Source: Tissierellales bacterium (GTDB lineage Bacteria; Bacillota; Clostridia; Tissierellales; JAOAQY01). From it: a DNA stretch of 49,664 nt. A program made the position numbers and the translations under genes. Numbering within the stretch: the first letter of the stretch is position 1; each line of letters begins with the position of its first letter. The stretch spans positions 1 to 49,664 of the forward strand of contig JAOAQY010000215.1 in NCBI GenBank assembly GCA_025210965.1, given 5' to 3'. This document shows, piece after piece, positions 35,351-43,571 of the stretch. The notes under the pieces are model-generated. The model saw nothing but the letters and a program-made list of their open reading frames with translations, had not been told where the DNA came from and made no database searches.

Positions 35351-36697
35351 CTATCTCAAGAAGTCAAGCAATGTAGGTTGTATGATTTTGGCTCCTGCAG
35401 CTAATGAAGAATTGTATATATTTTCCTCTATTTTGAGTTGAGTATAAACCTGAGCCATATTAGCATCTTCATTGTTACTTAAAAGTTCTGTAAAGTTTAT
35501 ATTTTCATCACCCATACGATTATCAGTAAGTTCTAATCGTTTAACTTTTGCTCCAATTTCCGCTTTATTTTGCAATATATTTTCTTGAATACCATCAAAT
35601 CTCTCTATTGTTTTCTGAATGATTTCAGCATCACCAGTCTTAAGTGCATCAGTAAATTCATCAACTACAGCTAACATATAACTCTTGTCAGCATAATCAT
35701 CACTAGAGCGTTTTCCATTCTCATCATTTACTACCTCGTATCCGTTAACTTGATTTTGATGGTAATTTGGATTATCTATAAGCTTTCCGTTAGAATCAAA
35801 TTCTGCTTTTCCAAAAATCCTTATTCCAACTGTATTTACTGTTATATCGTCAGACACTCCCAAATTATAATCTGAAACCTCACTTTGTTTAAGCGGATAT
35901 CTTCCATCTTCTAGGCCTAATTTATCTAAACTACCTGCGCTAGGTGTTTCTATTAACAGACTATCTTCATTGCCAGATGGTCTCGTAAATACAAGCTGAC
36001 CTTTTGTACCGCTTTGATTTACTATATCTGCAGTTATTCCAGTCGTTCCAGCAGATAATTGTGAATTTATTGCCGTTTTAAGTGCATTCAAATCAGAATA
36101 ATTTTGATTCAAATTTATATTTGTAGAAGTTTCTCCAAGTTTTATATCAAAATTTAGCGGTTCCGAAGCAAAATTCAATTGTCCACCGTCAATTTCACTA
36201 CCTCTAATTTCTGAGATCTGAGTATTTTCATAATCTGTAAGTTTATACTTACCACTATCATCTAAAAGTGGCACATCTGTTTTAAATCCTGAAAACAAAT
36301 ATCTTCCAGCATAAGTAGCATTGCCAGTTTGAACCAATTGCTCTCTCTTTTGCTCAACTTCAGCAGCAAATGCCTTTAGTTCATCATCTGTATTTGTTTG
36401 ATTAGATGCGCTCACTGCAATATCTCGCATCCTCTTTACTAAATCATTTACCTCTGTCAATGAATCTTCTGTCATCTCCATCCACGACTGAGCATCTTTT
36501 AAATTTCTTTGATATTGTTTCAGTTTCCCCAAATCAGTATGAAATCTCATACTCTTTGTAACACCAATTGGGTCATCTGAAGGTCTAGAAAACTTCTTTC
36601 CAGAAGAAAACTGCCTATTAATATTATTCATTCTCTCAAGATTGTTATACATATTGTTCATTACATTGCTAATAAGCATGTTGTTAGTTATTCTCAT
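35351..36697 (-). CDS. flgL: Hook-filament junction protein FlgL
   Basis: 448 residues; FlgL (HAP3) joins the hook to the filament. The N-terminus MRITNNMLISNVMNNMYNNLERMN with FSSGKKFSRPSDDPIGVTKSM and the C-terminus ending AQVYTQLKIEENIYNSSLAAGAKIIQPTLLDFL are characteristic. The middle is somewhat expanded compared with Bacillus FlgL (about 300). It follows flgK by 12 bp in one operon under the sigma-28 promoter ahead of flgK. Confidence 0.95.
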   Translation of the reverse strand: MRITNNMLISNVMNNMYNNLERMNNINRQFSSGKKFSRPSDDPIGVTKSMRFHTDLGKLKQYQRNLKDAQSWMEMTEDSLTEVNDLVKRMRDIAVSASNQTNTDDELKAFAAEVEQKREQLVQTGNATYAGRYLFSGFKTDVPLLDDSGKYKLTDYENTQISEIRGSEIDGGQLNFASEPLNFDIKLGETSTNINLNQNYSDLNALKTAINSQLSAGTTGITADIVNQSGTKGQLVFTRPSGNEDSLLIETPSAGSLDKLGLEDGRYPLKQSEVSDYNLGVSDDITVNTVGIRIFGKAEFDSNGKLIDNPNYHQNQVNGYEVVNDENGKRSSDDYADKSYMLAVVDEFTDALKTGDAEIIQKTIERFDGIQENILQNKAEIGAKVKRLELTDNRMGDENINFTELLSNNEDANMAQVYTQLKIEENIYNSSLAAGAKIIQPTLLDFLR

Positions 36698-36709
36698 ATA
36701 TTACACCAC

Positions 36710-38272
36710 CTATCTACCCATTGTTCCAAGTTGATTTACAACTATATTGTAAACTTCATCTAACGCACGAATCATTCTAGCATTTGCATTGTACGCATGC
36801 TGGAATTTAACCATATTTGCAGTTTCTTCATCTTTTGATACTCCTGAGTCACTCATTCTTCTCTCTTTTACATTTTTCATAATTGTGCCCTCATTAGACT
36901 CCATTCTCTCGGCCTGCTGAGCGTCAACGGCGAGAGTAGATACTATAGATTTTAAAAATTCATCAGGTGTTCCCTGAGCAGTAGGTGTATCAAAGAATTT
37001 CTTATCATTTCTCAAATCCAAAAGATTCTTCAAGTTTTTATTATTTTCTGGTCCATCATCTGCCGTAGCTGTTGCTAGAGTATTTAAATCATTTTTCAAA
37101 TCGCCAGAAATATCTATATTGTCTGCTCTAACATTTTCTCTCATGTATTTCTCAAATGCCTTGTAATCAGCAGATTCTTCATTCGTAAGATCTAAATCTT
37201 TTATTGCTTTTCCATTTATTTTAATCTTATCAGTATTTTCTCCAAATGCAGTCATAAATAATTTGCCAGATTCTCCATCGCCACCCACGCCGGTCGCATG
37301 TACCTTATTCATTTGTATAGCAAACGTTGATGCAAACTCATTTAATCTATTTACATAGTACGGAATGCCTCTATATTCGTTATTTTCACCTGAACCTTCT
37401 CCATCCAATGAGCCATCGCCTCTAAAATCCAAAAGGCCTTTTATTTCTCCATCAGTAAGTTTGAGTTCTAGCCCACTGCTTTCCCAATATATTTTGCTAA
37501 GTTTTTCTTCTGGATTTTGGGCATTGTCCATTTCCTTAACCAAAAGTTTATTAGAATTTTCATGGTCCACAAGTGTCATTCCACCAACACTGACATTGAC
37601 TTTCCCCTCATATTCAGTAACATCTATATTTACTATTTTAGACAGATCATCTAACAAACCATCTCTTTTGTCTCTTAAATCATTTGCATAGCTTCCATCT
37701 AATTCCATAAGCTCAATTTGCTTATTAACCTCTGCTATTTGCGACCCATAATCATTGACTTGAGTCACTTTAGTTCTGACTTGAAAATCAGCTTCACTTT
37801 GTAAGTTATACAGTTTTTTTGCTAATTCATTTAGCTGCCCTGTAAATGTTTTAGCCGATTCTCTTACTAAGGATTTACTCGCATAATCCGATGGATTATT
37901 GTTAAGCTGTTCTATAGCCTTATATAAATCATCCGTCGCCTTTCTCATACTGCTATCTGTAGGTTCATTAAATGCATTTTCTATATCTTTTAACCTATTC
38001 ATTCTGATTTCCCAATCGCCGTGCTTTCCGCTTTCATCCCAAAATTTATTATTTATATAGTCATCTCGCACTCGTTTTACATCTGTAATCTGTGTTCCTG
38101 TACCAAGCATTCCCACACCGTATACTCTCTGTGCCTGCGTTGCAGACTGAGTAATTACCTGCCTTGAAAAATCTTTATTATTAATATTTGCTATATTGTG
38201 TCCAGTTACATACAAACTCCTCTTACTTGTAAATAATCCTGAAACAACCGTATTAAATCCATCCCAAGCCAT
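36710..38272 (-). CDS. flgK: Hook-filament junction protein FlgK (standard copy)
   Basis: 520-residue FlgK (HAP1). The N-terminus MAWDGFNTVVSGLFTSKRSLYV with GHNIANINNKDFSRQ and the C-terminus EETANMVKFQHAYNANARMIRALDEVY are typical. The D2 loop after GLLDFRGDGSLDGEG is short, unlike the second FlgK upstream. It is the partner of flgL in the operon. Its sigma-28 promoter has a perfect inverted repeat over the -35. The ribosome site is GAGGGAAGTGAG before the ATG. Confidence 0.94.
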   Translation of the reverse strand: MAWDGFNTVVSGLFTSKRSLYVTGHNIANINNKDFSRQVITQSATQAQRVYGVGMLGTGTQITDVKRVRDDYINNKFWDESGKHGDWEIRMNRLKDIENAFNEPTDSSMRKATDDLYKAIEQLNNNPSDYASKSLVRESAKTFTGQLNELAKKLYNLQSEADFQVRTKVTQVNDYGSQIAEVNKQIELMELDGSYANDLRDKRDGLLDDLSKIVNIDVTEYEGKVNVSVGGMTLVDHENSNKLLVKEMDNAQNPEEKLSKIYWESSGLELKLTDGEIKGLLDFRGDGSLDGEGSGENNEYRGIPYYVNRLNEFASTFAIQMNKVHATGVGGDGESGKLFMTAFGENTDKIKINGKAIKDLDLTNEESADYKAFEKYMRENVRADNIDISGDLKNDLNTLATATADDGPENNKNLKNLLDLRNDKKFFDTPTAQGTPDEFLKSIVSTLAVDAQQAERMESNEGTIMKNVKERRMSDSGVSKDEETANMVKFQHAYNANARMIRALDEVYNIVVNQLGTMGR

Positions 38273-38459: not shown

Positions 38460-40451
38460 CTATATTCTAAACTTTCTTATATCATTTTTCAGATTAACTG
38501 CTCTCTCATTTAATTCCTCAGCCGATCTTGCTACCATTTCAACCGCTGCCGTCTGTTGCTGCATACTAGCACTTACTTCTTCACTAGCAGCTGCTGTTTC
38601 TTCTGATACTGACGATATATTTGTTATAGCTGTAACTATATTGTTTTTGTCATTAATCATATCTCTAAGCTGTCTATCTATCGTTTCAATAGCAACTGCA
38701 ATTCCTTCTATGGCCTGTGAAACATTATCAAATGATTCATCAACTGCCTTCACCGCTGTATTTTGCTTTTCTGTGTTGATTTTCAAATCTTCTACTATGT
38801 TAACTGTATGGTGAGTTTGACCTTGTATCATTCTTACAATTTCTGCTATTTTTTCAGCAGATGAAGATGATTCTTCAGCAAGTTTTCTTATCTCATCTGC
38901 TACTACTGAAAATCCTCTACCATGTTCTCCTGCTCTAGCTGCCTCTATTGAAGCATTAAGTGCCAGAAGATTAGTTTGCTCTGCTATTGATGTTATAGTT
39001 GTAAGTATATTTTCTATATCTTTAGATTTTTCCTCTAAATCATAAATGGCAGTAACAACCTCTCCTGTTGATGACATATTTTCAACAGATTTAGTTCTAA
39101 GGTCCACAACTACTTGTGTACTATTCACATTTATTTCTTTTATATCTGCTGATTTTTGGTAGATATTTTGTGTACTCTCTTCAAGCTCTCTCACTCCTGA
39201 ATCTAACTTCGATGTAAGCATCGCTGCAGCTTCTGCATCTTGAGCTTGCTCACTAGCACCTTTAGCTATTTCTTCAACAGTTCTTGAAACCTCGTCTGCC
39301 GAAGCACTAACTTCTTCACTTGATGCAGCCAATGACTCTGCTGACTCTCCTACCGAATCTGTCATTTTAGATGCATTCTCTATGAGCTCTCTTACATTAG
39401 ATGTCATATCATTGAATCTTCTTGCAAGTTCTCCAATCTCATCTTTTGATCTCACATTACAGACCACAGTCATGTCTCCCGATTGAACTTTAGCCATATC
39501 TTCAACTACTCTATATATAGGCTTAGTAAGCGATCTTGCAAACACGAATGCTCCAATAAATGCAATCAATATAGCCGCAAAACCAATCATGAATGTATTT
39601 CCAATCAATACACTCGCTTGATCATAGGCCTCTGATTCCAACATCGAAACCATAAGGTACCAATTAAGTCCCTCAACTTTTCTAATCACTGCATATTTTT
39701 TTACTACCACTCCATCTGCATTTGGATAAGTATAGTTTACAATTCCCTCTTCTCCGCTAAGTATCTGATCTTCAATTGCCTTTACCGGTACCTTATTTCC
39801 CACTTGTTTTGGGTCCTTATGAGTAATACAATTTGCCTCTGCCGTCAAAAGTGCAACTGCTCCAGTTTCTCCTACCTTTATCTCTGACATGTCTTTAGAA
39901 AGTCTTTCAAGATCCATACTCATTGCCACCACACCAATGATTTTACCACTAGCATCTTTTACGACTTTACTTCCAGAGACACTCGGTTTTCCTGTGGTTG
40001 CAGACTCATAAACCTTAGTCCAATTCTCTGCCCCAGTCTTCATTGCACCAGTATACCATTCTCTCACTCTAGGGTCGTATCCCTCTTCAAAATCATTCTC
40101 AGGATAGATATACATCCCACCATCGGGAGTACCTATATATGATTGGTACACTGTCTCATACACGTCAGTATAATTTTTAAGTAAATTTCTATGCCAAGTT
40201 GTATATCCCGTTTCTTCGAAAGTCTTGAAATTATCATTTAATGCCAATTGCTTCAATCCATCCATGTAACCCTGGTATTCATTTTGAATAGATCTAGCTA
40301 TTTCCTCTCCAATCGCACCACTTGATGTCTTGAAATTTTCCATAACTAGCTGACTTGAAATATAATACGATGCTCCCCCAACAGCCATAACCGCTAATAC
40401 TACAATCGCTGTAACTACTCCTAATAATTTTGTTCTGATATTCAGTTTCAT
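38460..40451 (-). CDS. Methyl-accepting chemotaxis protein inside the flagellar block
   Basis: 663-residue chemoreceptor. The first membrane helix spans about residues 8-30. An extracytoplasmic dCache-like domain follows ([55 protein letters not shown]). The second helix is near 283-303, then HAMP and the signalling domain with the tip [39 protein letters not shown]. The DPRVREWY and VSMDLE patterns resemble amino-acid-binding dCache receptors, but the ligand is not certain. It lies between two flgK genes with its own sigma-28-type promoter and its own terminator, so it is a separate unit. AGGAGGAG precedes the ATG. Confidence 0.94.
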
Positions 40452-40696: not shown

Positions 40697-42658
40697 CTAT
40701 ATTCCCACTCTTCCAGTTCCATTTATAAGTTTATCTATCATCTGGTCTATGACGTTTATCATTCTACTATTTGCAGAAAATGCATATTGATATTTCATCA
40801 TAAGCGTCATCTCCTCATCCATAGAAACACCAGATATTTGCTGCCTTTTATTTTCAACTTCATTCTTGAGCGTGTCAAAATTATCTTTCATTCCTTTTGA
40901 ATGATTTGCACTTACTGCTAATTCAGATGTGATACTTCTATAGTATTTATCAGGAGTTTTACTTCCAAATAATCTCTTTTCTCTCAATTTATTGATCTCT
41001 TCAGCAATCTTACCATTTCCTCGTTCTTCCGTTTTATCTGCTGCTGCAAAATAATTAAGACCCTTTTCTTCATCAAATATAGGATTTAATTTTATATTGC
41101 CAGCCTGAAGTGGAAGTGCTGGATTTTCTCTTACAAAAAGAGGTTCTCCTTTATTTCCCTCTAAGTCGTATCCTTTTTCATGAATTCTATTTATATTTCT
41201 AACCAATCCATTTATAAAGGCATTCAATTTTTGCTTGATATCCGGAATAACCTCTGCAAACTCACCTACATCTCCCATTTCTTCTGATGCAGTAGAATTC
41301 GTCTCAAATGCCAAATTCTTAAGATAATTAGGTTCATCGATTTTTGTTATATCGTGAAGTGTTCCACCAGTAGCCTCTGTTATATCAGCTAAGTTCTTAT
41401 CGTTTATGTCTCCGATTATAGAGATTGAAACGCCTCTATCCTTTAATTCTGCTAGTAAATCCGCCCTCATAGTCGCCGAACCACTTATATCAATAGTAGA
41501 ATTAGTCATCAATATTATTTTTTGATGACCATCTTTATTTTCAAAGTCTCCGCCTGAATCAACATAGTCAATCAAATCGTATATATTAGAAAATGTCTTA
41601 GCATTGTCCTCACTTATTTCGGGATTTAGCTCATAATCTTCCAGTTCTGCTTTCATAGAATTCTTAAATTCACTTAACTTGGAATTTTGGCTTGCATTTA
41701 ACGTTCCTGAATTACTCACAAAATGAACATCTACATCCAAATTTACTGCACCGTTTCCCTTTCCAACAATTCTAGAATCTACATCACCTCTAGCATCTAT
41801 AAGCCCTCTAAGCGCTCCCGCTTTTTCAGTTGACACATCCAAATCTACAAGTTCATTATCAAATATACTCTCAAACTCATCCCAGTAAACATCAACATAA
41901 GAGCTTTTTCTAGGAATAGTCATCATCTTTGTCGTAAATATACTTTGAACTAGATGTTTTCCGCCAACTGTTATATTTATAGAACCATCAGATCTTTCCA
42001 GTGTATCAATTGGCAGTAATCCAGATAATTCATCTATGAGAACATTTCTTCTATCTCTAAGATCATTAGCTCCACCAAATACCCCTTCATTGTGTATTAT
42101 TTCCTTATTGATATGAGCTATCTCCTCAGCTATTTCATTTACTCGGTTGACCATTTGCTCTATATTTTTATTTAAATTTCGCTGCAAATCATCTAATTGA
42201 TCGCTTATGTGGTTGACTGTATCAATCATAGCCTGACTGCTCTGTTTCAAAAGCGCTCTATTAGTTAAATCTTCTGGATTCTTCGCAACCTCATCCCACT
42301 TGTTCCAAAACTCGGATACTACCTTTTGTATTCCACTATCGTCAAGATCGTTAAATATCTCCTCTACTTGTTCAAACACCTCAGCTCTGGCATCATAATA
42401 AGCAGACTGCCTATTCTGCTCTCTATATCTCATATCTAAAAAGCGATCTCTTATCTGTCTTATCTCTTGGACATTAACACCGGTACCTACGCTTCCTGCC
42501 GGAATATCATCATATCTATTAGTCGAATGATTTACTTGCTGCCTAGTATATCCCTTAGTATTCATATTAGAAACATTATGTCCAACTGTATCAAGGGCTT
42601 TTTTATTTGCAAATAAACCTGACACAGCCGTAGACAAACCAAAAAATGAAGAGCCCAT
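40697..42658 (-). CDS. FlgK paralogue with an inserted vWA-like domain
   Basis: 653-residue FlgK. The N-terminus MGSSFFGLSTAVSGLFANKKALD with GHNVSNMNTKGYTRQQVN and the C-terminus EEMTLMMKYQYAFSANSRMINVID are normal. Inside D2, after GALRGLIDARGD (281-292) and before IPDIKQKLNAFINGLVRNIN (471-490), about 150 residues are inserted (305-452). They read like a von Willebrand A fold: a beta strand VDVHFVSNSGTLN, a helix with KTFSNIYDLIDYV, KIILMTNSTID, LLAELKDRGVSISIIG and DITEATGGTLHDI. The metal site is degenerate: S315-N-S-G-T319 replaces DxSxS and N386 replaces the usual Asp. It has its own sigma-28 promoter and terminator. Confidence 0.85.
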   Translation of the reverse strand: MGSSFFGLSTAVSGLFANKKALDTVGHNVSNMNTKGYTRQQVNHSTNRYDDIPAGSVGTGVNVQEIRQIRDRFLDMRYREQNRQSAYYDARAEVFEQVEEIFNDLDDSGIQKVVSEFWNKWDEVAKNPEDLTNRALLKQSSQAMIDTVNHISDQLDDLQRNLNKNIEQMVNRVNEIAEEIAHINKEIIHNEGVFGGANDLRDRRNVLIDELSGLLPIDTLERSDGSINITVGGKHLVQSIFTTKMMTIPRKSSYVDVYWDEFESIFDNELVDLDVSTEKAGALRGLIDARGDVDSRIVGKGNGAVNLDVDVHFVSNSGTLNASQNSKLSEFKNSMKAELEDYELNPEISEDNAKTFSNIYDLIDYVDSGGDFENKDGHQKIILMTNSTIDISGSATMRADLLAELKDRGVSISIIGDINDKNLADITEATGGTLHDITKIDEPNYLKNLAFETNSTASEEMGDVGEFAEVIPDIKQKLNAFINGLVRNINRIHEKGYDLEGNKGEPLFVRENPALPLQAGNIKLNPIFDEEKGLNYFAAADKTEERGNGKIAEEINKLREKRLFGSKTPDKYYRSITSELAVSANHSKGMKDNFDTLKNEVENKRQQISGVSMDEEMTLMMKYQYAFSANSRMINVIDQMIDKLINGTGRVGI

Positions 42659-42777: not shown

Positions 42778-43272
42778 CTAAATTTTAACATCAAATAAAC
42801 TCTTAGATGGTTTAACCTGTCCCGGATCCTCTGCTGTCTGCTTGTAATTATCACTCTGCCCAACACTTGTAAGTAAATCCAAATTCAAATTCACAAACTC
42901 AAGAGAATCTTCTATCAATACTTTATTCAAATCATTCCCATCATGAATACGATTGAGAGTTCTCAGCAAGTCCTCTCTAATCTCGACAAAAAATGACTTA
43001 TCTTTATCTTCTAAATGATCAATTAGTTCTCTCATTCCAAAGTCTTTAAGACCTATTCGTTTCCCCATTTGATCAACTAATTTTTCTCTAGACTCCTCTA
43101 GTTTACCAATCTTCATAATCAAACTCTGTTCCACTTGTGTCATCTTATCGAGTTCTTGTATTCTATTTTCTGTTATAACATCCTTTTTGGTCAACGTTAT
43201 ATCTAGTAATTTTTTGTACACCTCAAGCTCTTCTTGAAGTATAACTCTCAGTTGATCTAAAATCGCTCTCAT
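42778..43272 (-). CDS. flgN: FlgN family export chaperone
   Basis: 164-residue helical protein of the FlgN family (YvyG in Bacillus), the chaperone for FlgK and FlgL. The coiled, acidic pattern LQEELEVYKKLLDITLTKKDVI and the mid segment KLEESREKLVDQMGKRIGL fit the family. The position between flgM and flgK confirms it. AGGGG lies 8 nt before the ATG. It may serve two FlgK clients here. Confidence 0.9.
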   Translation of the reverse strand: MRAILDQLRVILQEELEVYKKLLDITLTKKDVITENRIQELDKMTQVEQSLIMKIGKLEESREKLVDQMGKRIGLKDFGMRELIDHLEDKDKSFFVEIREDLLRTLNRIHDGNDLNKVLIEDSLEFVNLNLDLLTSVGQSDNYKQTAEDPGQVKPSKSLFDVKI

Positions 43273-43283
43273 CGCATTAGCCC

Positions 43284-43571
43284 CTATCTTCTTCTAGCTT
43301 CCGCCATCATTTTTGCTGCGATTTTCTTTGCATCAACTTTATACTCTCCAGACTCCACCTGCGTCTTGATAGCATCAACTTTTTCTTGTCTGATTTCAGG
43401 AACATCCTTAGCTGCATTTAATACAGTTTGAAAATCCTGAGCTGCATCAGATAATTTTAATTCGTCTCTCTTACCCACTTCTGTCTTAGACGATGTTTTT
43501 TTGGCTTTGATGTTTTGCTTGTTATAAACGCTCATCATTCTTTGTATATTTGCGCTATTATTTATCTTCAT
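43284..43571 (-). CDS. flgM: Anti-sigma-28 factor FlgM
   Basis: 95-residue FlgM, which binds and inhibits sigma-28 and is exported when the hook is complete. The N-terminus MKINNSANIQRMMSVYNKQ is disordered-like; the C-terminal helices DELKLSDAAQDFQTVLNAA and QEKVDAIKTQVESGEYKVDAKKIAAKMM are the sigma-binding part. It is controlled by a sigma-28-type promoter, giving feedback. GAGGTG precedes the ATG. Confidence 0.94.
   Translation of the reverse strand: MKINNSANIQRMMSVYNKQNIKAKKTSSKTEVGKRDELKLSDAAQDFQTVLNAAKDVPEIRQEKVDAIKTQVESGEYKVDAKKIAAKMMAEARRR

Follow-up and report, generated by a model that had tools for sequence, protein, structure and literature searches.

The window examined here, the whole 49,664-nucleotide stretch of contig JAOAQY010000215.1 from a Tissierellales bacterium, carries on its minus strand the gene flgK1 (40697..42658), which starts with ATG and encodes a FlgK of 653 residues with a reduced vWA insert. 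FlgK, also called hook-associated protein 1 (HAP1), connects the filament to the flagellar hook. The assignment of the product is based on the TIGR02492 equivalog, against which it scores 359.5 bits (E 3.4e-107; cut-off 170.75), and PF22638 (E 1.7e-50), PF00460 and PF06429 likewise match. The neighborhood is also that of a FlgK, with minus-strand genes nearby for the anti-sigma-28 factor FlgM (43284..43571; PF04316, E 4.8e-20), the FlgK/FlgL chaperone FlgN (42778..43272; PF05130, E 7.8e-22) and FlgL, a protein of 448 residues with a Flagellin_N domain (35351..36697; PF00669, E 2.3e-24). A second gene on this strand, flgK2 (36710..38272), encodes a canonical FlgK of 520 residues without the insert (TIGR02492, E 3.2e-94), and a gene for a methyl-accepting chemotaxis protein with dCache_1, HAMP and MCPsignal domains (38460..40451, minus strand) lies between the two flgK genes.

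The FlgK families match both flanks of the insert in FlgK1, confirming an earlier sequence-only reading in which the ends of a normal FlgK surround an inserted segment. Residues 1-292 (41783..42658; minus strand, as are all parts of the gene given below) form the D0/D1 N-terminal part, which ends at GLIDARGD and is covered by PF00460 and PF22638. The remainder of the protein (40697..41266) consists of the second half of a broken D1 helix (IPDIKQKLNAFINGLVRNIN), a small D2, the D0 C-terminus and the stop codon, and is covered by PF06429 and the second stretch of the TIGR02492 match. The insert itself, at residues about 293-464 (41267..41782), is supported by alignment with 12 relatives from the order, an AF2 model (pLDDT 78) and Foldseek matches to vWA/I domains. 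It lies between GLIDARGDVD (285-294) and IPDIKQKLN (471-479), the motifs named in the earlier reading, and with about 170 residues is slightly longer than the 150 estimated there.

In FlgK1 the PF22638 match breaks off at position 196 of the 233 in the profile, and beyond the insert FlgK sequence returns with IPDIKQKLNAF; judged from this sequence evidence, the insert interrupts the D1 helix running from D1b towards D2. Across the window FlgK1 and its relatives, the break falls at position 195-196 of the profile. FlgK2 has only a short loop at this site, as had been described, and matches PF22638 without a break (profile 1-232 of 233). The insertion had been placed in D2, which proved incorrect, as the PF22638 break lies in the D1 helical domain; an assignment to D2 or D3 is ruled out by the position of this break together with comparison to the published Campylobacter jejuni FlgK (PMC5691160). 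By position, the site corresponds to the break between α6 and α7 of C. jejuni FlgK, where 14 residues (Gly300-Gly313) are inserted into a segment that forms a single uninterrupted helix in the FlgK of Salmonella and Burkholderia pseudomallei (PMC5691160). This correspondence was mapped by motif and domain model, the stretch not being aligned by phmmer. This insert recurs at an identical position in many genomes and is therefore not a chance feature.

The window insert searched alone against Pfam gave no match, with none to PF00092 or PF13519, the two profiles suggested in the earlier reading, at E values up to 10, and a direct PDB sequence search with it returned nothing useful. Its link to vWA is drawn from homologues and from a model of moderate confidence. 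PF00092 is matched by 19 of 36 complete clostridial FlgK inserts (E up to 1; best 1.1e-10) and PF13519 by five of the 36, PF25106 is also matched by homologues, and the window insert aligns at the same site with the inserts matching PF00092, which supports homology to a bona fide vWA. Among solved structures, a profile of the complete inserts finds collagen VI and the I domains of integrins alpha-E and alpha-M. The model of one complete insert (L010, pLDDT 80) has the order β1-α1-β2-β3-α3-β4-α5-β5-α6-β6-α7, which is canonical for vWA, and its best Foldseek match in the PDB is the vWFA domain of the adhesin LapA (E 2e-7). The window model shows the same order of elements without β2 and β3, so that the six-stranded sheet is incomplete. 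Retained in this model are the strands β1 (VDVHFVSN, residues 309-316, 41711..41734, also supported by the alignment) and β4 (HQKIILM, residues 378-384, 41507..41527) and the C-terminal helix α7 (residues 445-461, 41276..41326). For this model Foldseek ranks integrin I domains and other vWA domains highest (probability 1.00, E from 4e-4), with TM values of about 0.46-0.49, i.e. below 0.5.

The structure prediction and fold search that had been recommended thus place vWA/I domains on top, and the proposal of a vWA domain stands as far as descent is concerned; the domain is incomplete, with β2-β3 absent. That the insert might be a flagellar D2/D3 domain with no relation to vWA, or have some other Rossmann-like fold, would fit with the lack of a direct Pfam match and with the response regulators found among the lower-ranked Foldseek matches of the window insert, but we regard this as very improbable, considering that homologues match three vWA families, that the fold searches with both the window and the complete insert are dominated by vWA, and that the D2 domains of known FlgK proteins are β-rich (PMC5691160).

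The metal site (MIDAS) of the window insert could be read in register with the relatives. The invariant β1 Asp position is occupied by N316 (41711..41713) and the β4 Asp position by N386 (41501..41503), and motif positions 3 and 5 are G and L; the DxSxS motif with a β4 Asp is absent. A degenerate site, with S-N-S-G-T and N386 for DxSxS and Asp, had been noted before, and the MIDAS positions were correctly read, both Asp being replaced by Asn. The β1 Asp is kept in 36/36 complete inserts versus 0/5 short inserts of Tissierellales. The β4 Asp is present in 12 of the 36 complete inserts and is retained in three short ones. Both DxS/TxS/T at β1 and the β4 Asp are found in 10/36 complete inserts, a count that leaves out the MIDAS Thr, and seven of these 10 belong to Tissierellales. 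The key β1 Asp is therefore constant in complete inserts while the full MIDAS is variable. Two reduced inserts were found outside Tissierellales, one with the β1 Asp changed to Asn (L129) and one with the Asp kept (L127), so that six of the seven reduced inserts combine shortening with loss of the β1 Asp, a combination seen in at least two distinct lineages. Taken together, FlgK1 is almost certainly a FlgK with a reduced, metal-site-dead member of the vWA-FlgK family.

The insert is present in 13 of 249 Tissierellales genomes and, beyond these, in 33 genomes from a sample of 391 Clostridia genomes, of which 153 have a FlgK match; these genome counts leave out weak matches that are not, or not demonstrably, the FlgK1-type insert. 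An alignment-based search recovered seven named loci, in Sporosalibacterium, Caloranaerobacter, Thermohalobacter and Anaeromonas, whereas a scan of the named genomes with a single-protein query gave no match. In a core tree calculated without the insert columns, complete, short and absent forms are intermixed within Tissierellales, and in family f18 the insert-less relatives L020 and L021 are sister to the short forms with support of 100/99. The branch leading to the window protein is long, measuring 1.04 in the core tree and 1.86 in the insert tree. A single origin of the five short inserts alone was rejected (p 2e-5), a clade of the five short forms together with the f18 loss was not (p 0.07), and the insert-only tree places all short inserts on one side of one branch (91/95). 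Within Tissierellales there may accordingly have been one reduction or several.

Outside Clostridia most profile matches were not vWA-FlgK, and one was. This FlgK of 816 residues (L091, 172-2574) has an unbroken D1 helix and carries its vWA in D2, where the insert is matched by VWA_4 above its cut-off and has the motif DNTSS. Its nearest relative, from the same genus, has no vWA, and the domain is apparently a recent, independent acquisition. With a vWA in D2 beside an unbroken D1 helix, this protein indicates that vWA reached FlgK at least twice. The FlgK proteins of family f58 (L130, L131 and L132; 616-635 residues) were also considered as carriers; their extra length lies in the D1b region and contains no vWA.

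The best overall explanation, to which we assign a probability of roughly 60%, is that FlgK1 contains a vWA-derived, reduced and metal-site-dead insert in D1 as a structural part of the junction. The D1 helix would have been interrupted by a vWA inherited from a vWA-bearing clostridial FlgK1, and the window lineage would then have lost the β2-β3 edge of the sheet and both MIDAS Asp, with the remaining α/β scaffold kept in frame. Eleven FlgK subunits make up a ring above the hook (PMC12221982), and D1b of FlgK has been modelled in contact with FlgE (PMC5691160). An insert that interrupts the D1 helix close to D1b would most simply face outwards beside the hook, and by analogy with the FlgK structures of other bacteria about 11 copies may be carried on the outer face of the ring. 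These copies could pack against neighboring FlgK subunits, the hook protein or FlgL, with no metal-mediated ligand binding. The FlgK identity, vWA ancestry, β2-β3 loss, metal-site loss and D1 insertion in this account are read from sequence or predicted, and from them we infer the steps that concern the role. The specific role of a structural collar or packing surface of the junction ring is proposed tentatively, with odds a little short of even. Loss of the metal site disfavors MIDAS-dependent binding by the window protein, and retention of the scaffold in five genomes favors structural use, with decay still a serious rival.

According to the decay explanation, the insert would be functionless and tolerated as its site faces solvent, the short form being a step towards complete loss. 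The grouping of the insert-less f18 proteins with the short forms and the long window branch are both in agreement with it, but no stop or frameshift occurs in the five short-form genomes, core motifs (the β4 HKKI-type motif, the TGG turn and α7) are kept, and the window segment shares 36-38% identity with the other short forms. We consider decay unlikely on this balance. The adhesive or binding display at the filament base put forward in the sequence-only reading is weakest for the window copy, which has no MIDAS, and is more plausible for the relatives, in view of the 10 complete inserts with the β1 motif and the β4 Asp. For the window copy it would require metal-independent binding by an adhesive or receptor domain displayed as a ring at the filament base. 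Some vWA domains do bind ligands without the MIDAS ion, the complete domain has an adhesin vWA as its nearest structural match, and the intact reading frame in five genomes would suit such a function; against it, much of the usual MIDAS face is gone with β2-β3 and both Asp, and flagellin or the cap would be a much better place for adhesion than a minor ring at the hook end with about 11 copies. Binding of this kind is thus quite unlikely for the window protein. Complete-domain relatives with DxS/TxS/T and the Asp could plausibly bind a surface or partner through a metal ion. A broader scenario, which we offer as speculation and hold to be somewhat doubtful, is that the complete FlgK1 vWA is a working metal-dependent module that binds a surface, the hook or a partner, that vWA was recruited at least twice at two sites, and that lineages like that of the window switched off metal binding and kept the scaffold as a collar in a two-FlgK junction.

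The vWA fold is best known from adhesion proteins, and the hook-filament junction is usually regarded as a fixed adaptor. What is described here is an adhesion-type fold built into the flagellar junction across Clostridia and partly dismantled in the window bacterium. Its wide presence in one of two tandem FlgK proteins, with reduction or loss in several lineages and independent gain elsewhere, suggests that the junction is a mounting site for extra functions, and raises the question of whether a vWA on about 11 subunits binds something or merely stiffens the joint. A literature search for FlgK or hook-associated protein with von Willebrand, VWA or vWFA, mostly outside subscription journals, found no report of this architecture, in line with the earlier impression that it was undescribed; one paper containing both FlgK and VWA terms turned out to be unrelated. 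The complete domains are recognized by PF00092, and public domain databases therefore probably show the architecture, even if it is undescribed.

We have compared FlgK1 with known systems. The FlgK structures of Salmonella and Campylobacter (9go6, 9gsx, 2d4y and 5xbj) share with it the D0/D1 ends, TIGR02492 and the flgM-flgN-flgK-flgL neighborhood, but have no vWA, and in C. jejuni only the 14 residues mentioned above break the D1 helix (PMC5691160). With the vWA/integrin I domains (PF00092; LapA vWFA, 9no5; integrin alpha-M), the complete relatives have the fold, the strand order and the β1 DxS/T in common, whereas the window copy lacks β2-β3 and both MIDAS Asp and is housed in a flagellar axial protein. 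Foreign domains in flagellar proteins are already known, e.g. flagellinolysin, a flagellin with a metallopeptidase in its hypervariable region (PMC5595980). There, as in FlgK1, a foreign domain of an axial protein is predicted to face outwards; however, the carrier is flagellin rather than the junction FlgK, the domain is a metallopeptidase rather than a vWA, the copies number thousands rather than about 11, and the window insert has no active site. The FlgK of B. pseudomallei (4ut1) is likewise enlarged by an extra domain, D3, which resembles its own β-barrel D2 and is attached to D2 (PMC5691160), in contrast to a vWA in the D1 helix.

A second flgK lies downstream of flgK1 in nearly every sufficiently long locus, whether the insert is present or absent, and wherever a vWA is present in the loci examined, it belongs to the upstream copy. 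For Salmonella, modelling of the junction found a stack of FlgK layers to be unfavorable (PMC12221982), which bears on how two FlgK proteins could share one junction. Diverged tandem pairs of FlgK paralogues are common across Clostridia. In the relatives seen, flgK1 and flgK2 are adjacent or at most a few hundred bases apart, whereas in the window the chemotaxis receptor gene separates them. In some Tissierellales genomes (L081, L084 and L017), a gene for a small four-helix protein of the 23S rRNA intervening sequence protein family lies between the flgK genes (PF05635, E 1e-27 for L081; L084 and L017 assigned by similarity).
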